Below are positions 11,857 to 43,097 of a DNA stretch of 64,000 nucleotides, piece after piece. This DNA comes from Beroe ovata (Eukaryota; Ctenophora; Nuda; Beroida; Beroidae): assembly GCA_946803715.1 (NCBI GenBank), contig CAMPET010000198.1, positions 37,848 through 101,847 on the forward strand. Direction: 5' to 3'. Each line of letters begins with the position of its first letter. Within the stretch, counting starts at the first letter, position 1. The translations under genes were made by a program, and so were the position numbers. Below the pieces are notes generated by a model, which saw only the letters and a program-made list of their open reading frames with translations, was not told where the DNA came from and did no database searches.

Positions 11857-13145
11857 CACTTGCCTATCTTCAACTCACAAAGGGACCATGTATGACCATC
11901 AACCTACAAAATAAGTCGATGAGGAACGTCGATAGGGAGAGCGAGATGTCAGCGAATGCACATTGCTCATGTTGGTGACTGGATTAACGAGCAGGAAAAA
12001 GATCAATGAGCATTGAGCAAGTGACAAAATGCCAGCGAATCACACATAAATCAAAATGGGACCCTTGACAAGCGAATCACCGGAATTAACGATCCAGATT
12101 ATTGTAATCTTTCAGCTCGGTCAAGAGCAAACATGCCTAGTATGATTCCTAATGGTTAATGGGTATTTGAAGCTGATGGTACCATAGAATATAGACCTAG
12201 CCATGTCTCGCGGTAGTTTCCTGACCGAATTTTGAACAATAAAGGTCCAAAAACTTGAAAAACAGCTACGTATCATCTCGCACTACAGGACGGAACAACC
12301 TGATGAACAAATTCAATCAAGTGTACACCCGAAGAGGCTCAACATTGTGACAAACGAAATAGTCTTCTTTCAATTACATTAGATATCGCCATAGAAATAC
12401 TCCGCAATCTCAACGAAACCACATTCGTATATTATCTGACTAGGCAGCGCGCGGCGCGTCATTTATTTGATCATGAAGAAGAGCGGTGGCAATGAGCATG
12501 CCTCACAAAATCAATGACATGGCAAAATCATTTTCAATAATTTTTATCAAACTCATAATTTAGGGCCCCGGGTTTTCCGAACTTCACTATTAATTCAGCG
12601 TCGCGCGGCGCGCAAGTCATTGCGCGGCGTAACCCGTAATTGCCGGCTATTATTTGTTTACAGTTTTGTGCTCAGTGCTTATGCTTCTTGCGTGCGCGGG
12701 CACGCGCGCGCCTTCGAAGAAGAAACAGTGGACAGATAACATCCGGCAAACCCGTGTCTGGATAATTCTGAAATAATTACTTTATTGCGACGAAGACAAA
12801 CTTTGAAACTTTTAGGCAGCCTTGAATATAACCTTAAATCAATAATGGTATTTAGAAATTTGTGCAAAGATAATACTGCACAATCACTCTTTATTGTGCA
12901 ATGCAATGTTCATGTTTGATTCTGTCAAGTATATGGAGAGATTTCCTACAACCCAATAGGATGCATGTATAGCATCCTATAAATTTCATTGTTGAGTGAA
13001 TAAAATTGAATAGGTTTGTGCTCAGCAAGCATTATTAAGACCAATCTTCTTAAATGAGATTTTTTCACATCATCACCCACTGATATCATTAAAGTAAATA
13101 GCAAATGATTTTTATACTAATTTATTGATATCCATAGGGGTAAAG
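11857..13145. promoter_or_regulatory. Divergent intergenic region, QRICH2-like / PI3K
   Basis: This 1.3-kb region separates the start codons of two oppositely transcribed genes, so it should contain both promoters. It includes a CG-rich stretch at about 12440-12720 with several GCGCG clusters, in otherwise AT-rich DNA. The last bases before the PI3K ATG read as a polypyrimidine-poor splice acceptor (atccatag at 13129-13136), which suggests a 5' untranslated exon upstream. No coding exon was recognised. Confidence 0.5.
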
Positions 13146-16100
13146 ATGCCATCCAAAATATATGGGTTGCCTAGGGAGGAAATTGAGATTGAATTCATGC
13201 TTCCGCAAGATCGTTCAGTTTTCATGAATGCACCTGTGAATGGAAAGATACAAGATATGAAGATAAAGCTTTGGCACTTTCTTGTTTCACAGGGGCTTGA
13301 GTTAAGTGGTGCACCAGCAGATTACATATTCAGCTACAGTTATGAACTTAATGTTTATGAAATAATTGATGAAAATGTATTGCTGTGCTGCTTAGATATA
13401 TTTAGACTTTGGAAAAGTGATGAAACCCTAATGAAATGGCTTGAAGTCAGGCCCAGAAATAGAATACTTTCAAGACATGAAAAAGATATGGTCAGTATGG
13501 TACAGTCTCTAATAGGCTTCACCTCTGCTGATCTTGGAGTTGAGGGGAATGTTGAAATGCAATGTGCAAGGAAAAATTTTGCAGCAGTCCGTCAAACAGT
13601 AGAAAAGCTTAGAGACCCTTATACTTATTATCATGGCCCACGAGTTATCCCCCACCCTCTCCCACTACATTTACTCAAACGTTGTAAAGATCAAATATTA
13701 TTTGTAGAGTTCTTTTTTCCCAGTGGAAGCACTAAAGCCCAATTGAATGAACTTTTTGATAAAAGTGCTGATTTTGTTAGAGATGAAATGTTCCCTAAAG
13801 ACCCTGTGAAAAGAACTCTTTATGGGCTTAATGAGGATTCAGAATCATCAGACTTTGTGCTCAAAGTTGCTGGGCTGGACGATTACCTAACTGGGGAAAT
13901 ACCTTTCATTGACTTCGTGCATGTTCGTGAGTGTTTGGTGAGAAAAGAGCATATAGACTTATGGTATTCAGAAAAACCCAGTGTCCCACCTGATGAAGAT
14001 CCAATGTTGAACACTCCTCTGCTAGATCCATCAGAAAAGTATAAACTGTACCAGTCAGACCTAAAAATTGTTGGAAAACTTCATACAAATATAGCCGCAC
14101 TGAGCCTTTGGGACATAAATCAAAAGTTGCGACTGAGGATAATCGGTTGTGAAGGAATTTCTGATCCTGAGGATGATTTATCACATATCTATGTGCAGTC
14201 AACTCTTTTCCATGGACAAAATCCGCTTTCTGCACCAGGTTCCACGAAACAGGTCGAGTTTTCAACATCCCCCTCTTGGTATCAATGGCTGACTTATGAT
14301 ATTTCTCTTAGAAATGTCCCACAGGATTTGAAATTTCACCTTCATGTCAAAGCAATAACTCGAGGTCAACGTAAGAAATCTCTCTCTGAAGAGAATAAGC
14401 CTAAAGTGTCAAAGAAGAATCAAGTGCCTGGAAAATGTGACAATTCTAAAGACATATCAGCTGCTGTTGATGGAGAAGACATATCCATTGCTTGGATCAA
14501 TCTCCCCTTGATAGATTTCAGATCTCAATTGAAGACTGGGAAAATATCACTAAAATGCTGGAGTATCAGTGATGATTCTGAGAATTCTGTTCCACCGTAC
14601 CCTGATGGTGTTGTAAGTGAAAACCCCAGTTCTAATTGTATTACACTGCATTGTGAGTTACCCGAGTTTATGTTCCCTGTCATAGTACCCTCATACCCAG
14701 AACCCCCAGAAAATATTGACCAGGGTCCAATACCTAGTCCATCAGAGCAGAGTAGACTAGAGGCCCTGATGTACAACGTTGATGCTTTGAATGGAATAAG
14801 TGATAAAGAGAAAGAACTTATATGGAAATACAGAAGGTTTCTCAAGAATTATGACCAAGCCTTGCCAAAACTCTTGCAAAGTGTTGATTGGTGTTACCAG
14901 GAGAATGTAGAAGAGATTATTCAAATGTTGCAGGTTTGGGCATCGCCACGGATTGAAGTTATCCTTGAACTTTTGTCATGCCGGACTCCTAACTCTGTGA
15001 TACGTGCATATGCAGTTTCTTGCTTAGGAAAACTTGACATTTACACTGTCAGTACTTATCTTTTGCAGCTAATAGAGGCTCTGAAATATGAAACTTACCA
15101 CGATTCCCCTCTTGCAAGACTTCTTCTGAGAAGAGCTTTAGAAAACAGAGAATTTGGACATTTCTTCTTCTGGCATTTGAGGAGCATGATAGACCGTTCT
15201 GAACACCAAGTGAGAATTGGCTTGATCTTGGAGTCATATATCCGTGGCTGTGGCGATGAACAGAGATTCAGATTGCTTGCCCAAGTTCGAACATGTTCCA
15301 TGCTGAAGAATATTGCACAGCAGCTAAAATCCGATAAATATCAGAATGATGCCCAACGCAAGTCATACCTAATTGAAGCACTCCAAAATGACGACTTTCC
15401 GAATAACTCTTCTCCCGTGTTCAATCCTCTGATTATTCTTGGGAAAATCATACCCCGGGAATGTACTTTCTTTGACTCTAAGAAGAAGCCTCTACTTCTG
15501 GTTTTCGAGAACGGCGATAGAAACAACACAAACAGGAAATCTGTAAGAGTGATATTCAAACATGGAGATGATATTACACAGGACATGGTTACCATCCAGA
15601 TGTTGAAACTCATGGAAGATATGTGGCAGCAAAGTGCACTTGACTTGTACATGATGCCATATGGGTGCATAAGAACCAGTAGGAATTGTGGCATGATCGA
15701 ATATATTGATGCCATGACCTTGTCCGATATAATGTTGGAGCATGGCGGAGTAACAGGTGTATTTCGTGCAGAGTTGCTGAAGGAATGGCTCAGCCAGCAG
15801 AACACGTACAAGATTGACCTCGATAGAGCCCTCCAGCTGTTTACCATGAGTTGTGCGGGTTACTGTGTTGCGACCTACGTGTTGGGAATTGGTGACAGAC
15901 ACAGCAGTAATATTATGGTCAAGCGTAACGGCGCCTATTTCCACATAGATTTCGGGCATTTTCTCGGTAACGTGAAATACTTTGAGGTCCTTGGATTGAA
16001 CATAAAGCGGGAGAGAGTCCCATTTGTCTTCACGTCTACTCTTGCATTTGTAATGGGTGGTAGGGATGGGGAACTCTTCAAGCAGTTCGAAGGGATGGCA

Positions 16101-16343
16101 TGCAGGGCTTTCGCAGTCCTGAGAAAGCACTCTCATCTGTTGGTGAATGCTTTATCGTTGCTGTTAAAGGCAGGCATGCCAGAACTGCAGTCAAGTAAAG
16201 ACATCGAATATTTGCACTCAACTCTGTTGTTACATAAGAGTGAGTCTCAAGCAGCGTATCATTTTCAATCGCTCATCAATGATACACTGAAGGACAAATC
16301 AACTGCTCTTAATTTCCTTGCACACACTCTAAAACATTTATAA
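13146..16343 (+). CDS. PIK3CA: Class IA phosphoinositide 3-kinase catalytic subunit p110, intronless
   Basis: About 1065 residues in a single exon. Domains in order: adaptor(p85)-binding domain (IEIEFMLPQDRSVFM), Ras-binding domain (about 190-290), C2 (about 315-500), helical PIK domain (about 540-720) and kinase. The kinase shows the affinity-pocket strand VIFKHGDDITQDM, MMPYGC, the catalytic loop GIGDRHSSNIMV and the activation-loop start HIDFGHFLGN, then KRERVPFVF, all intact. It phosphorylates PtdIns(4,5)P2 at the membrane when recruited through p85 to phosphotyrosine YxxM sites. The ABD and RBD mark class IA. It probably represents the single ancestor of vertebrate alpha/beta/delta, so the symbol is approximate. 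I chose the ATG at 13146, just after an acceptor-like site; an in-frame upstream extension has no ATG. A 3.2-kb intronless ORF is striking beside intron-dense neighbours. Confidence 0.93.
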   Translation: MPSKIYGLPREEIEIEFMLPQDRSVFMNAPVNGKIQDMKIKLWHFLVSQGLELSGAPADYIFSYSYELNVYEIIDENVLLCCLDIFRLWKSDETLMKWLEVRPRNRILSRHEKDMVSMVQSLIGFTSADLGVEGNVEMQCARKNFAAVRQTVEKLRDPYTYYHGPRVIPHPLPLHLLKRCKDQILFVEFFFPSGSTKAQLNELFDKSADFVRDEMFPKDPVKRTLYGLNEDSESSDFVLKVAGLDDYLTGEIPFIDFVHVRECLVRKEHIDLWYSEKPSVPPDEDPMLNTPLLDPSEKYKLYQSDLKIVGKLHTNIAALSLWDINQKLRLRIIGCEGISDPEDDLSHIYVQSTLFHGQNPLSAPGSTKQVEFSTSPSWYQWLTYDISLRNVPQDLKFHLHVKAITRGQRKKSLSEENKPKVSKKNQVPGKCDNSKDISAAVDGEDISIAWINLPLIDFRSQLKTGKISLKCWSISDDSENSVPPYPDGVVSENPSSNCITLHCELPEFMFPVIVPSYPEPPENIDQGPIPSPSEQSRLEALMYNVDALNGISDKEKELIWKYRRFLKNYDQALPKLLQSVDWCYQENVEEIIQMLQVWASPRIEVILELLSCRTPNSVIRAYAVSCLGKLDIYTVSTYLLQLIEALKYETYHDSPLARLLLRRALENREFGHFFFWHLRSMIDRSEHQVRIGLILESYIRGCGDEQRFRLLAQVRTCSMLKNIAQQLKSDKYQNDAQRKSYLIEALQNDDFPNNSSPVFNPLIILGKIIPRECTFFDSKKKPLLLVFENGDRNNTNRKSVRVIFKHGDDITQDMVTIQMLKLMEDMWQQSALDLYMMPYGCIRTSRNCGMIEYIDAMTLSDIMLEHGGVTGVFRAELLKEWLSQQNTYKIDLDRALQLFTMSCAGYCVATYVLGIGDRHSSNIMVKRNGAYFHIDFGHFLGNVKYFEVLGLNIKRERVPFVFTSTLAFVMGGRDGELFKQFEGMACRAFAVLRKHSHLLVNALSLLLKAGMPELQSSKDIEYLHSTLLLHKSESQAAYHFQSLINDTLKDKSTALNFLAHTLKHL

Positions 16344-19378: not shown

Positions 19379-22300
19379 AGTTTGTGTTTGTGCGTGTGTG
19401 TGCCTGTGTCTGTTTCTGCTTTTGTGTCTGCTTTTATGTCTGATAATTTGTTCCTTATTTTGTAATCACCAACCCACCTAGATTCCAGATCCTATGAAGC
19501 TGCTCGGTCTGTACGAAGAGGCTGTTTTCCTGAAGTCTGTGACCAGTTACCTTGTCTTTGCTCTGATATTCCTCGTTCCTATTGGTCAGGTAACTGCCTC
19601 AGTCCATCTTCCACACGTGTGTTTCCCCCACTCTCTGTTACCATGGTAACAATGTTGACTCATGGTAACAATATTACATAATGCTGGCACATGGTAACAA
19701 TGTCCACCAATTTCCAGGTTGTTGAAGGTCTACCCTTGGCACACGGCAAATACTCATATCTCTGTAACGGTAAGTACCCCGCGATTGGTTATGTATCTGT
19801 TTCAGACCTCTCCCCATGTCCTCCGACCCCGTGACCCCGGCTGTTTTATCGGTCCATAGCGTGGTCCATAGCTTGGTCTACAGCTATAACTAGTTGTAAT
19901 AGATTAGAGAGGGATTTAATCTCTGGCTCTACAATGTTGAGAGTTAAGCAAATTATTGGTCAGTAAAATAGAGTCATGCTTCACGGAAGTTGCTGTACGT
20001 CGGTGGAGAGTTAATTACCCCATTAGTTAATTACCCCATTAGTTAATTACACTCATCACTTCTCATTGTGTACGTATGGTGTCGTATGTTGAGTGTCATT
20101 AACAAAATATGAGATAATGCATTTGCGAATAACAAACAGCTAAATAGTTTTAAGCCAATGTGACATCGGAGAGATTGCTCTGTGGGGTCATGGAATTGTT
20201 CATGTGAATATGCGAAAAATTTTCGAGTCCATTGTGCGAGCAAAAAATAATCAAAATAATCTGAAGGTATCCTTCTAGGGTTCTGTATTATAGTATAAAT
20301 GATGTCATGAGTATACTCAGTCAACAGTGTATAGGAAGTGATAACGATGCACAGTGTTAACAGACTGTAATATACATACCACTGTACTATGAATTGTCTA
20401 TCTGTCGCCGTGCACTATACACAATACAATGTATAGTTCAGATACTAATGTACCTGGCTTTAATGATAGGTACCCAAAACATTGTGGAACGAACTTCCTT
20501 GATAACTCCGCGCGAATGAATATTTCTTGATAACCCCATGCGTCTCCATTATTAAACACGTGAAAGCAAACTGCAGTTCCGTGTACATTTTCCTGCGAGA
20601 TGATGTACACTTTTGTCTAATTATCTTCGTAATAGGCTTGACATTGTTGCACTGCACTAGTTATTATAACGTACAGTTTAAATTGACAATTATACTGGTA
20701 ATATGCGGTAACCACTTCATGAAATTCCGGTTCATTGTACATTCCCTTGCATTCTATTTAGTATATCAAAATCACGATGGAGTGTGATACTATTGGAGGC
20801 GACAGCCAATAAGAAGACCGAATACTTTGCACGTGGTATTTTATCATCCAATCAGAAGGCAGTATAGGATAGCTGTACTCATAGTGTACATTTCCTGTTG
20901 CAGTTTCCTGATGTTATACATCCCCTACATTTTACACTGTCGAATGAAGAATGTACGAAGGTACAATGTACAGATTACAGAATGCATCGACCAACATAGT
21001 TGGCCAAACAGTGGTCATTGCTCATTATGGAATTTATACTATTGACAGTGAAATTAGAGTTAGGGTTCATTGCTATTAGGCAAAATATAGAGTTGCCCCA
21101 TTACTGTATGGGAATTGTTTAATACTGACCTGAAAATGAACCGTCACAAAATGAACGGTGAAATGAGCAATATGTGCCTAGCAGGAAGTGGTTTCGATCC
21201 ACTGACCTTTGGGTTATGACCCCAATACGCTTCCTCTGCGCCATCCTGCTAGACAACCTATACAGTATCGACATAGCGATGTACAATGCAGACTGAAGTT
21301 TAAACCTGTCTGAATTATTGCTTTAGACTATCCTTTTAGATGGCCATCCGTAGACCTTAACTACGCTTTTTGAAAGAACTATAAGTGCTTCCCAAATAAG
21401 TACTATTAGGGACTAGGGTACCTATTTATTTGTAGACATGACAACTGCATCTTGGCCAATTATGGAATGTTGTATGGCAACGCACAACACTTGGCACAAA
21501 GTTATTTGCCGCGCTTCATCATAACTGTATTTCGCGTAAGGCGCGAGACATTTTTGACGCGAATGTCTGCGCGTCATACTAATTTGAAAATTAATTTGGG
21601 CGCGTGCGCGCGCTTCATTTCAGCCCAATTTCCATTCAACAATACTTTCAAAGAGGTCAAACAAGTCACAAGGTTTTTTCATACAGCCTAAACGTCCTAA
21701 GAACTCACAATGGAAGTGAGTATAGATCTCATAGTTTTTATCCAAATCAAAATTAAGCTTCCTGAATTACCAGTATGTATGGTGTCATAAGTACGGTGTC
21801 ACAAGTACGCTAAATGAAATGAAAGATTATCGATGAATATAATGACTTAAATTAGTTGCGGCAAAGCCGATTGTACAAAGCAAAAGTTTCTAGCAGGAAG
21901 TGGTTTCGATCCACCGACCTCTGGGTTATGGGCCCAGCACGCTTCCACTGCGCCACCCTGCTATCTGCCTGCAGCAGAAATTTGAATGATTTAGACGTTT
22001 TGCGAGAACATAGAGTAGAGTTCATGATTTAAATATCTGGCTGAAGATCGTTTAAATAAGGCTTCGTGCAATGAGAATCTAGCCATTGCAATTGGGGACT
22101 GGTCATCAAGCAGGGTGGCGCAGTGGAAGCGTGCTGGGCCCATAACCCAGAGGTCGGTGGATCGAAACCACTTCCTGCTAGCAACTTTTGCCGTTTGATG
22201 GACTGAATCATAGTGTCGCGGTACAGTCCGTTTACCATTCATACCACCGTCGCAGGTCCTGCAGTACTACTACTTTGCTTGGTGCTCCAGTATTTTGGAC

Positions 22301-26757: not shown

Positions 26758-29700
26758 TCAGTACTGGTAGTTTTTATTGAAATAATCACACTCGTGTTGA
26801 GGGAAAAGTTCCTCCAGTTTTTCCAAAGTACAGGGTGGGTCGCAGTCCGGTATTTCCACCAGCTTCTCATTGAGGAATGTCTGGACAACACGTGAACCAT
26901 TGTCCACGCCCTGACATCCGTCCATGGCAACGAAAGTAAGGATCCCGCTGTACGGCATCATGTCACCGAAGAACCTCCTTGCCATGATGTCATCGATCCA
27001 ATGGTCGAGCGGTTCGGAAACAATCCCAAGATACTCAAAGAACGGGAGTAAAGTTTGGGAGTGGCCGAACAGGAAGGATTTTTCGTTGTTCCTCAAGCTT
27101 CGTATAGCTTCCTGCATCAAAATGCAACTAGAAGCAATGCGTTTCTTCGTTACCATGGTTTCGTGTACAAGCATGTCCTGAGGATAGCACGGATGTGACA
27201 AGTTAATTTTTGCCATATCACTCATTTGACAACAGATTCTAACTTTGACATGAGCTTGTACAGCCTATACAGCGGTATAGGTGGTACTGGTATCTCAAGA
27301 GTCAGTGCCACTTTCGCATCATGAAATACTTACCTTGTAGAAGGAGAGGATTTCAAGTTCCTCTGGTTTGAAGAATGAGCAGAAATTCCCGTTATTCACC
27401 AGGTTTGGAAGGGTTTGCTCCGTGATACAGAAGAGATGCATGGTCGACATTTCGTCAAGCGTCAAACTGAATCCGAGGCGACCACTCATATCGTTCAGTG
27501 CTTGAGTCAGTTGCCTGCACAAACAATAAATATAATATAGTCATAACACAACGCAAAAACTCAAAATGTACAGTGTACAGACAATGTTCACACAATGTAC
27601 ACACAATGTACAGTGTACACACAATGTACACACAATTTTCATCCGCTGTATGATTTACATACTATGAAATAATGAACTTAAATTGTGTATACAATGTACA
27701 ATGTACATCCAAGGTAGTTTATAGTTGCAAAATATTGATTCAATGTACATCCAACGAACAAACCTGCTGCGAGATATATAAGCGGGGACACCCGATTCGT
27801 TTTCGAGTAACAAGTTGGTCGCTTTGACACAGCCCTCACATCGCTGATAGTACTTGATCTGGAGTACTTGATTTGGAGTAATTACAAGCCTTGTGTTGTC
27901 ACTATGTTCACAACAGTATACTAGCTACACAGTACACACCCTAGAAATACAAGGCACACCCTTACAGAATGAGAAATAGACACCCTTACAGAAAAACAGG
28001 GCACACCCTTAGTTAACTCACCAGGGCGTGGCGCCCCGGATTGAACATCTTCAGTGGCACGCTGTCTCGCGAAGGGGTGAGGAGCGGCTGGTATATCCGA
28101 CAGAGTAACTTGTTGCTCTCCTCTCCCTGACACTCCCCCACCGACACGCCATGTACACTAGCTGACACATCGCCACCCATGATGGCGGTGGCGTTAGGTG
28201 TGGAGTAGGTGCTTCCTAACATGCCGTAGAGTAGAGCAATAGCCGAACTAACACACCTGTGTTAATGTTAAAACGATCTTGCTATGAAATAATATGAGCG
28301 ATAGTTATTTCGAATTGAGGGTAATTAGTGAATTAATGAGGGTAATTAGTGAATGCTAACCTCGCTTTAGAGGAGGAGGAGACTTGAATACTACTCGGAT
28401 CTGAAATAAACGGGATATCAAGCAACCTTGTCAGGTTAGCTTGACAAGCAATGACGGCTGTCACGTGGTCAGGATAGGCTGTCACGTGGTCAAGATAGGC
28501 TGTCACGTGGTCAGGATAGGCTGCTCATCATTATGTTCCTACCTGACAGCAGACCGGGAAACGCTGCTCTGTATCGCTTTCCCTGGCGGAGAGGTTCCGC
28601 GTAGCCCTTCCGCGTGAGATCTGTGCTCGTAGTAAATCTGTACTCAACATCTGTGCGATAAAGAAGTCCTGTTATCACAATTAATGATAATATTCTAAAG
28701 AGGTTCCAAGATTGAAGTGTCTTTCAATGAGCAACAAATTGTCAAATTGCTCCTATATTTTAGTCTACCTAATATCCAGTCTGGTATTTCTGAGGACGAT
28801 CTAGAATGGATATCCTTTATCTTTGACATGAATTTCTTTATTCGAGTCTTGAAACCTGCCTTTGAAGCTGCATCCCTTATTCCATGGCGATGTATACTGA
28901 AATAGAATATGAGTGAAACAGGAGGTACTCAAATTTAATTTTATTGCTCGACACGGGTAATATATTGCTTGTGGCCCACTGGGTAGAATCAGCAATAGTG
29001 TTATATAGTGCATGGCTGCATGAGTAACCACCTGAATATAGCACTTGGTTCACAGGGAAAGTCATGCTGGTCTATATGCCCCCCAACACGAGAGTAGGGA
29101 GTCTTGGAGCCCGCCAATTCATGGTGTATGGGGACCACACCTCGGCTACTGGGTGGTGGGGCGGCGGGTGCCACACCACAGTCATATCCGAGCAGCTGGC
29201 AATCAGCCAGGTAGAACTCCTTATACCTCCTCTGGAGATCACTCGGCAACGACAGAAAGACCGGCTCCCACGCGAGTGCAGGCGGTGGTGTGTCTCCCAC
29301 TATTGATTGCGGAGGCAGTCCTAGAGTCTGGATAATGTAGTGTGTGTCTCGGGAGAAAGTGGCTAGATCCACAACGGCTAAGTAGTGGAATGAACATGGC
29401 GAACAGAGGGTGAAAAGTGGCTCCCATAGCTCGTCAGAGAGGCCACCTGATAGAATAGCGGCAGAGAACTCGATAAAAGTGGGGAAGGGCGGGTTATGGT
29501 AGGGGTTATTGCGGTCATAGTGGAGTTCAGACAACCCAGATTGGATAAAATCAGCAGCTGAAGACAAGAGAGCACGCTTCTCCTGGTCAGCAAGATGGCG
29601 GGGGTCACGCTGATCATACAATATCTGCCTGCCAAACTGGATGAAATTTCTGTGACATATCTCGGCGTGCTGTTTACACATGACCTCAAACAGCATGTGG

Positions 29701-30251
29701 TACACAGATACGATACGTTCGAATGGGTGCCCCGTTATCAGGAAGCTGTAACTTCGTCCTTGAGTCTGATTATCCCTGTCAAAAACATGACAGTTTTGAA
29801 ACGAGTTTGAGCCCTGACATCTACCGTTGTAGCTGGGCTGTGTCATGATACTGGTCCACTGAGCGCTAGCAGGGCTGGACACTGAGCACCAACTCAGATA
29901 TGTACTATTTGCCGGAATATCCGCCACCGATATCGGCAGGGAGGGGCGCACAGCGCCACAATATCTCTGCACTCGATCCAGCCTATCTGACATGGCCCGT
30001 GGGGCGGGAGATGAAACTGCATCCCATCCATCATGATGAGATGGATAGGCGGGGATAGGACTCCCCTCATCCACCAGTCTTTCAACACGGGTGGGGAGCT
30101 CCATATTGTGTCCAGAAATTGTCAGCTCCTGCTCACTTTGTCTACTGACACGCAGGTGCCATAAGGATATGATCACAAACACGGCGATTGAGAGGATAAA
30201 GAGTAATCTGGTGAGCCTGCATTGAGATATACTTCTCAGGAAGTTCGGCAT
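26758..30251 (-). CDS. MINPP1: Carbohydrate sulfotransferase fused to MINPP1-type histidine phosphatase
   Basis: Eight exons in phase: 29032-30251, 28769-28896, 28543-28650, 28361-28400, 28022-28247, 27764-27843, 27334-27514, 26758-27177, about 800 residues. Residues 16-31 are a type II signal anchor. Residues about 100-355 resemble Golgi carbohydrate sulfotransferases (Sulfotransfer_2: LITGHPFERIVSVYHMLFE; FYLADCQLLGYDCG). The same exon then continues into the MINPP N terminus (ELAGSKTPYSRV... FPCEPSAIF), and splicing AG/T gives SIHRHGIRD, the phosphatase catalytic strand. Later landmarks: TRKGYAEPLRQGKRY, IQVSSSSKASSAIALL, GHSQTLLP, FLNEK. If not spliced at 29032 the first exon ends at a stop at 29001, giving a stand-alone sulfotransferase of 416 residues. 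Fusion is an inference from phase and homology. Expected site: Golgi lumen. Several catalytic residues look altered. Confidence 0.75.
27560..27720. repeat. acaatgtacac-type short tandem repeats
   Basis: Irregular repeats built from acaatgtacac and gtacagtgtac, with local self-complementarity (gtacac/gtgtac). They fill the intron between the 27334 and 27764 exons of the fusion gene. Confidence 0.7.
28456..28520. repeat. Three 21-bp tandem repeats, each with a CACGTG E-box
   Basis: The unit ggctgtcacgtggtcaggata occurs at 28456, 28477 and 28498 with one mismatch. Each unit holds the palindromic E-box CACGTG. It lies in the intron between the 28361 and 28543 exons of the fusion gene. A regulatory role is possible but not shown. 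Confidence 0.85.
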
Positions 30252-41149: not shown

Positions 41150-43097
41150 ATGTCGATATTTCTTCTTCAGCTCATTTGTCTATTGGTAAGTCAATTACTT
41201 TACGTTCCAAATAAGATGGGATTCGATAAATACTGCTTTATTGCCGACTACTTTATCGGTGATTCTTTGATTCTTTGATTCACAGTTCTCAGTTTTCGCC
41301 TCGTATGAGGAATGTTAGAAATGATGAATAATGATAGCAGTACTATCTGTTAGATAATATGTATGATTTCCTATGCATCATTGCCACGTATGAACCAAAA
41401 TTTCCCATCAGGCATCAACGCATCAGTTGGGGATAGGGCATATCAAATTCATTCAATATTACGACACCTCATACTGCGATAGTGCCGGCTGCGACTTTTA
41501 CTTCTATCAGCTGGAAGTGTTTGACTCAACAACTAGCAGGCTAGTCTATGTTGACAGAAATAGGGATGATGTTGGTAACAGCGATACTGTCAACTTTTCA
41601 GAAGTTGAAGAATTCAACTCCGAGTTCAAGTTTACACTCAACACAAATACAACTGTACAGCTTAAAACTGAGGTATGGGATGAGGAGAGAGGGACGGACA
41701 AAGAAATTCGAACCATACAAATAGTATTACCTTTCAATACCATTCAAGCAGGAAATTCATGGCTGAGAAAAAATTTTACACTTGATAATCCTTATGGATA
41801 TTTCAATATTGATATCAAGATTTCAAAATGCGATGACAATTTCACGGGATTAGGATGCAACTTTTGCTCGGCTTACTATTACTCAAGCACGTGTTCAAAA
41901 TACTGCGAGCCAGTTGTCGGTAACTACACGTGTAATCAAGATGGGGAAAAGGTCTGTGCTGAACATAAAACTGGACATAACTGCGATGTTTGCGAAAGTG
42001 GGTGGACTGGGGGTGATTGTGACAGATGTGCACCAAACTACTTCCCAGAGGGACAGTGCAATGTCACGTGCACACCACAAGAGGACAGGTATGAGTGTTC
42101 GAGTGTAGGATCGAGAGTTTGTCATGAGAACTGGACAGGGAGAGATTGTGATCGCTGTGCTAGACACCACATTGGAGATCACTGTGACCAGTGCATTGAG
42201 GGTTGGGATGGACAACAGTGTGATAGATGTGCACTCAACTACTACCCAGTGGGGCAGTGCAATGTCACGTGCACTGCAATTAGAGATAGGTATTCGTGTG
42301 GAGAAAACGGAGAGAAACTGTGCAATTTCAAGTGGCAAGGTGTGAACTGTGACAATTGTTCAGCAGGATATCATGGAAAAGATTGCACGGTCTTCTGTAC
42401 ACCAACTGAGTTTTACAACTGCAGCGAGACAGGATTGAAATTGTGTCTGGATGTATCTGCGGAGGAGCAGAATGACTGCCAGAAACCGTCTAAAATGATC
42501 CTGCTGACCGGAGCTTCGGCTGGTACAGCATTCCTAGTAATCATCATGGGTGTGATCATAGCATTGTATTTTGTACTGAAAAGGAAAGGGGACTTATTAA
42601 AGAAACATGTTCATAATGACATGGATAGCAAAAGGAAAGAGAAAAAAGAAGGTGTGGCTAACGTTTCCAATCAACTTCCACCAGTGTCTTCAACCGAAAT
42701 GAGAAAAGGTGAAGAGAATCACTCCAACGAAGCAACAAAGCATGGCGTTACAAGTCAAGTCAAAGAAAATAACTTTCCGGACCAGAGCCTGACTTATGCT
42801 GTCCTGAATAAGAAATCACAGGACGTGAGCATTCCCGAGTGTGCTAGTGACACATACTCATGTTTAGACCACAGCAATAGACCGGGTACTGCGGTTAGAG
42901 CAGAGGATCTCACCTATGCAGATGTAACAATTCTCACTGCTGATGATAAGCAGGATGATGGAGATTGTACTTATGCTGAGGTTTCTTTCTTCGGGGAAAG
43001 GAAGGGTTTATCAGTAGAAGTGTACACTCCTGATGACAGTGGTTCGAGCAGTCCAGTTTATCTACAGATGGGGTCAAATGATATACCTTTTCTTTGA
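41150..43097 (+). CDS. DSL-like type I receptor with ITIM-like and YxxM cytoplasmic motifs
   Basis: Two exons, 41150-41185 and 41412-43097, 573 residues. MSIFLLQLICLL plus a few residues form a signal peptide split by the intron. Residues about 20-150 resemble the MNNL/C2-like N-terminal domain of Notch ligands. From Cys154 to about 355 there are four tandem Cys-rich modules of DSL type (pattern YY..GQCNVTC....DRY.C...G..VC...W.G..C.RC). A transmembrane helix lies at about 374-401, followed by a basic stop-transfer. The 170-residue tail has five tyrosine motifs: LTYAVL (Tyr474), DTYSCL (494), LTYADV (514), CTYAEV (533), VYLQM (562). Two fit the ITIM consensus [SIVL]xYxx[ILV]; the last fits YxxM, the p85 SH2 site. 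Notch ligands do not normally carry such tails. Inferred role: adhesion or recognition receptor signalling through SH2 phosphatases and PI3K. AATAAA occurs at about 43503-43512. Confidence 0.82.

Follow-up and report, generated by a model that had tools for sequence, protein, structure and literature searches.

The question raised by this locus is whether a single gene can join a sulfotransferase to a histidine phosphatase, and what a protein of that kind would do. The window analysed here, a stretch of 64,000 nucleotides corresponding to C198:37848-101847, belongs to a genome assembly of 77.8 Mb in 534 contigs that we surveyed for relatives. On the minus strand of the window, positions 30251-26758 hold an eight-exon gene whose coding sequence, stop codon included, is 2427 bases long. 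Judged from the DNA, a sulfotransferase and a MINPP-like histidine phosphatase are joined in this one gene and in one predicted chain of 808 residues, with GT-AG boundaries in all seven introns and consistent phases throughout.

Exon 1 (29032-30251, 1220 nt) encodes an anchor-like N-terminus, the sulfotransferase domain and the first 31 residues of the phosphatase domain. The putative signal anchor (residues 13-31; 30159-30215) is the most hydrophobic 19-residue stretch of the protein (Kyte-Doolittle mean 2.37), a call made by hydropathy count and not by a trained predictor. The Sulfotransfer_2 domain (PF03567; residues 119-357; 29181-29897) scores 36.1 bits against a cut-off of 22 (E 1e-8), and the frame runs from it without a break into the MINPP-like start, HHELAGSKTPYSRVGGHIDQHDFPCEPSAIF (29032-29126), which reads HHELAGSKTPYSRV...FPCEPSAIF. 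The first-pass annotation had described the exon in these terms, and frame, hydropathy and Pfam all bear it out. Its splice junction, 29032/28896, is likewise correct to the base and in phase: the donor CAG/gtggttac meets the acceptor tttcag/TATACATCGCC to give ...CEPSAIF-SIHRHGIRD. Intron 1 (28897-29031, phase 2) contains an in-frame stop at 29003-29001 and an AATAAA at 28945-28940, 56 bases beyond that stop. An additional short isoform with only the sulfotransferase, ending at 29001 through intronic polyadenylation, is therefore possible.

The remaining exons complete the phosphatase. Exon 2 (28769-28896, 128 nt) carries the RHGIR catalytic motif (28889-28875), exon 3 (28543-28650) encodes DLTRKGYAEPL... 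in the gene model, and exon 4 (28361-28400) contributes SSSSKAR, whose Arg is the third phosphate-binding one by motif alignment. These are followed in the model by exon 5 (28022-28256), exon 6 (27764-27858; IKYYQRCEGC...), exon 7 (27334-27514) and exon 8 (26758-27177), the last with an HSQ motif (27063-27055) replacing HAE and with the stop codon. Exon 6 was recognised by comparison with a paralog on contig C88; it matches the paralogs and is needed for exon 7 to stay in frame with exon 5, which would not be so in a seven-exon layout without it. The seven further exons that had been proposed downstream of exon 1 thus do form a single 808-codon frame. The profile check suggested at that stage gave scores above both curated cut-offs, the spliced protein matching His_Phos_2 (PF00328) with 39.3 bits against 23.6. 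Exons 5 and 8, searched singly against Pfam, matched no relevant family, and hence the phosphatase assignment depends on the spliced model together with the paralogs.

The surroundings of the gene have animal gene content, as indicated by neighbours within the window and by matches elsewhere in the assembly. A PI3-kinase catalytic subunit (RBD, C2, PIK and kinase) occupies 13098-16340 as one open frame of 1081 codons, and adenosine deaminase and tubulin are further neighbours of the fusion gene. A single ORF at 41394-43094 combines three DSL stretches with an EGF-like match and a hydrophobic segment recognised by eye, and it may encode a receptor of Delta-like or scavenger-like type. Four contigs of the assembly have Wnt-family matches, and TGF-beta matches are found too. 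A glass-sponge origin, suggested in part by the many single-exon genes (PMC10282587), was set aside on these Wnt matches, since a paper on two glass sponges bears the title 'Animal multicellularity and polarity without Wnt signaling' (PMC5684314). One apparent Wnt-matching open frame of 6033 residues (L049, C64:258000-267500) proved to be no giant protein but a short stretch of coding sequence next to a run of N. Three tRNA-Met (CAT) genes also lie within about 1 kb at 21178-22180, one of them on the opposite strand.

The same genome contains two more fused genes, on contigs C6 (L003, 846 residues) and C17 (L004, 844 residues), each an uninterrupted ORF with both domains (Sulfotransfer_2 109.6 and 106.6 bits, His_Phos_2 54.3 and 53.1 bits, respectively; cut-offs as above). 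When the C6 protein was searched against 5.77 billion proteins, one match was found at E 1e-5 among 6340 candidates. This protein, P0001 (834 residues), has both domains and is 49% identical to C6 over 93%; it is absent from the present assembly, where its best match reaches 48%. A profile of four rows gave three matches at E 1e-3 among 3279 candidates, namely P0001, P0002 and P0003, of which the last is a distant crustacean sulfotransferase. P0002 (476 residues, on a contig of 636 kb) consists of a sulfotransferase followed by FGTKSPYHLVAGNISKHEFPCKPNTFFR and a stop; its end, '..FPCKPNTFFR' and then the stop, coincides with the position of the donor of exon 1 in the window. With a best match of 51% in this assembly, P0002 represents the counterpart of exon 1 in another genome, and from the protein sequence a donor may be expected there at the site of intron 1.

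Stand-alone phosphatases give a second line of evidence. The paralog on C13 (C13:611150-612810), a predicted gene model, starts with a hydrophobic, signal-peptide-like stretch as judged by eye. Its introns 1 and 2 agree with introns 1 and 2 of the window gene in both residue and phase, and in each gene they flank an exon of 128 nt. These shared positions indicate that the sulfotransferase occupies the place of the signal peptide in C13. Two other stand-alone phosphatases, on C88 (L006/L047) and C10 (L048:4458-5882), are uninterrupted, have N-terminal hydrophobic segments and are 75% identical; the Pfam search had not detected the one on C10, which a further search recovered. Their alignment extends no further than the ORF and some 40 bases ahead of it, and both are probably retrocopies on this sequence pattern. 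The dN/dS of the pair, which has no sulfotransferase domain, is 0.335, 0.400 and 0.378 by three methods, indicating that the two genes are under constraint. We also observed two near-identical MINPP-like genes, on C480 (L001) and C227 (L002), which are perhaps uncollapsed haplotypes.

Taken together, the uninterrupted ORFs of C6 and C17, the proteins P0001 and P0002 and the intron 1 common to C13 show that the fusion is neither a chance nor a mis-joined product; a chance open frame is ruled out by the uninterrupted paralogs and the introns shared with C13. A protein search with the phosphatase part only gave none at E 1e-3 among 7139 candidates, fusions such as P0001 exceeding its length limit, and no NCBIfam family was matched by four members. 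Among solved structures, C17 alone had no sequence match in the PDB at 0.01 and a sulfotransferase of contig C23 (L014) gave nothing useful, while the alignments had the fungal acid phosphatase 1qfx as their best match. An AlphaFold model of P0001 from four rows (pLDDT 33, pTM 0.22) was discarded.

In the sulfotransferase tree of 23 rows, which comprises 19 of the 28 Sulfotransfer_2 loci (L014-L032), the window model and P0001-P0003, the sulfotransferase parts of the window gene, C6, C17, P0001 and P0002 form one clade (support 100/99). Loci L033-L041 were left out as short or broken matches, except that L035 is the window's own exon and was replaced by the model. The window sequence sits on a long branch (1.78) and deviates in composition, and its position inside the clade is therefore unsure. 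In the phosphatase tree, the window gene, C6, C17 and P0001 are united with C88 and C10 (98/98; 92/97 before C10 was added), with C13 as sister and C480 and C227 outside. A profile of this clade and C13 retrieves the C480 paralog at 7.6e-41, the best of 1000 shuffles being 1.2. The matches on C98 (RHGDRTPKQKM), presumably PPIP5K-like, were excluded from these trees.

The introns 1 and 2 common to the stand-alone C13 and the single sulfotransferase clade suggest that the fusion most likely arose once, by a sulfotransferase coding exon replacing the signal-peptide part of exon 1 in a MINPP-like gene, although the order of events is deduced. The uninterrupted C6 and C17 would then probably have arisen afterwards by retroposition. 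C88 and C10 either lost the sulfotransferase or represent a lineage older than the fusion.

Whether these domains are active is best considered for each copy. PAPS binding is the role of the Lys in the 5'-phosphosulfate loop and of the 3'-phosphate motif with its Arg and its Ser. The Lys is kept in 19 of the 23 sulfotransferase rows; C6 has Asn, and in the window the degenerate loop CSVSSPASAQW (29856-29888), aligned with CKISKVGSTSW of C17, has Ser at this position (29876-29874). The Arg is kept in 22 of 23 rows, the window being the sole exception: its degenerate motif LITGHPFERIVSVY, aligned with LIVRHPFQRIVSAY of C17, contains Thr-Gly at 29730-29735, with Gly (29732-29730) at the Arg position, while the Ser of the motif is kept. 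The loss of both PAPS residues makes the window copy probably a pseudoenzyme. C17, P0001 and P0002 retain both motifs (ISKVGSTTW and VRHPFERIVSAY in P0001) and are likely active sulfotransferase forms.

In the phosphatase half, the window gene has RHGIR with the nucleophilic His, together with the third Arg (KAR); C6 and P0001 likewise preserve RHGxR (RHGMR in P0001) and the third Arg. C17 reads RHGRS, and the loss of its second Arg makes a binding role less convincing for this copy. All six members of the clade have HxQ in place of HxE (HSQ in the window gene, C6 and P0001, HRQ in C17, HFQ in C88 and C10), and outside the clade the donor motif is HTE in C13 and HEE in C480 and C227. The losses differ between the fused copies: the sulfotransferase Lys in C6, the second Arg of RHGxR in C17, and both sulfotransferase residues in the window gene. 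For the MINPPs, the published account describes an RHGxRxh motif and a three-residue motif, often HAE, in which the Glu presumably donates the proton (PMC7762957). It also describes the E401Q variant of the bacterial BlMINPP, which is inactive and whose crystal structure shows the phosphohistidine, and reports that BlMINPP binds the sulfated analogue InsS6 (PMC7762957). Activity without a donor is also on record: AppA D304A still shows 1/3-phytase activity (PMC9181005) and yeast Vip1 E991A is more active (PMC11836120). Both cases count against reading the HxQ phosphatases as simply dead.

Our preferred reading, to which we give a probability of roughly 0.5, is that the family combines a type II membrane sulfotransferase with a phosphatase module that binds phosphate or sulfate without turning it over, the window copy being a pseudoenzyme. 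The window product would be a type II membrane protein, most likely of the Golgi, with a carbohydrate-sulfotransferase domain in the lumen and, behind it, a histidine-phosphatase domain derived from MINPP. Unless the start of P0001 has been called wrongly, its lack of an N-terminal hydrophobic stretch by hydropathy speaks against a type II topology common to the family. The HxQ domain may bind ring substrates that carry phosphate or sulfate, and might even become trapped by them, without turnover; binding is favoured over turnover because RHG is kept, as is the second Arg except in C17, but H-x-Q stands for H-x-E. It could thereby act for the sulfotransferase as a module that binds acceptor or product. 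The window copy might bind substrate or partner its active paralogs. With key catalytic residues replaced in both of its halves, the window protein is less likely to be a dual editor than a protein for binding or scaffolding. The first-pass annotation had proposed that one polypeptide might edit sulfate and phosphate on glycans; one chain with both domains is upheld, but editing by the window copy is not supported, given the lost PAPS Lys and Arg and HSQ for HAE.

In a more elaborate form of this proposal, an animal lineage evolved sulfotransferases whose MINPP domain is 'E-to-Q trapped' by nature and recognises sugar rings by their phosphate or sulfate, perhaps while holding a long-lived phosphohistidine. 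Such a reader would steer sulfation in the active members, while the window copy would be a pure binding scaffold with both enzymes dead. We offer this as a tentative possibility. We consider it unlikely that the window copy is a recent pseudogene in decay, derived from a fusion family that works: the long sulfotransferase branch and the loss of two widely kept residues would fit such decay, but all 808 codons, the eight exons and every splice site are intact, and the phosphatase part keeps its His and three Args and is 43% identical to that of P0001. Quite improbable is a truly bifunctional enzyme, at least in P0001-like relatives, whose sulfotransferase would add sulfate and whose phosphatase would remove phosphate on the same glycan. 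P0001 does keep the PAPS motifs and RHGMR, and the donor-less AppA and Vip1 variants stay active, but Gln is at the donor position throughout the clade, the same change inactivates BlMINPP (PMC7762957), and the window sulfotransferase lacks both PAPS residues. A phosphatase domain clearing PAP, the inhibitory by-product of sulfation, at its source would account for a sulfotransferase and a broad-specificity phosphatase on one chain, yet it seems very improbable, as HxQ predicts poor turnover and the window copy should produce no PAP. Two separate genes that merely look fused, with the sulfotransferase ending at 29001 and the phosphatase having its own 5' exon, are scarcely credible. The uninterrupted paralogs and the introns shared with C13 led us to reject this reading: although the stop and AATAAA of intron 1 allow a short isoform, C6, C17, P0001 and P0002 are fused, intron 1 is common to C13, and immediately ahead of AGSKTPY the window exon has neither a Met nor a hydrophobic stretch.

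Among the papers listed by searches of the open-access literature aimed at a sulfotransferase-histidine phosphatase fusion, we found no description of one. If the HxQ domain does read phosphate or sulfate, it would represent a new kind of glycan-reading module and the natural counterpart of the laboratory E401Q trap. The family in addition provides a fusion that can be traced through shared intron positions, uninterrupted copies and active-site losses that differ from copy to copy.

Several known systems resemble the window protein in part. Its phosphatase half is like MINPP (histidine phosphatase clade 2) in passing the His_Phos_2 cut-off and in having RHGxR and the third Arg. MINPP is a soluble ER protein with a signal peptide and a retention signal. 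The window domain, in contrast, lies C-terminal to a sulfotransferase, has HxQ instead of HAE and no signal peptide of its own, ends in KNYQY with no ER-retention motif, and has 1qfx rather than a MINPP as the best sequence match among solved structures. The family score, the anchor-like N-terminus and an HPFERIVS stretch are shared with the Golgi carbohydrate sulfotransferases of Sulfotransfer_2, from which the window protein differs by the added phosphatase domain and by the absent PAPS-loop Lys and 3'-phosphate Arg. NDST (N-deacetylase/N-sulfotransferase) is a Golgi chain with a sulfotransferase and a second glycan-modifying domain; the arrangement on one chain is similar, but the partner in NDST is a deacetylase and not a histidine phosphatase. 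PPIP5K/Vip1 likewise couples a histidine-phosphatase domain to a second catalytic domain and has an unusual residue near the donor site, whereas there the partner is a kinase and the residue is Glu, not the Gln of the window protein.
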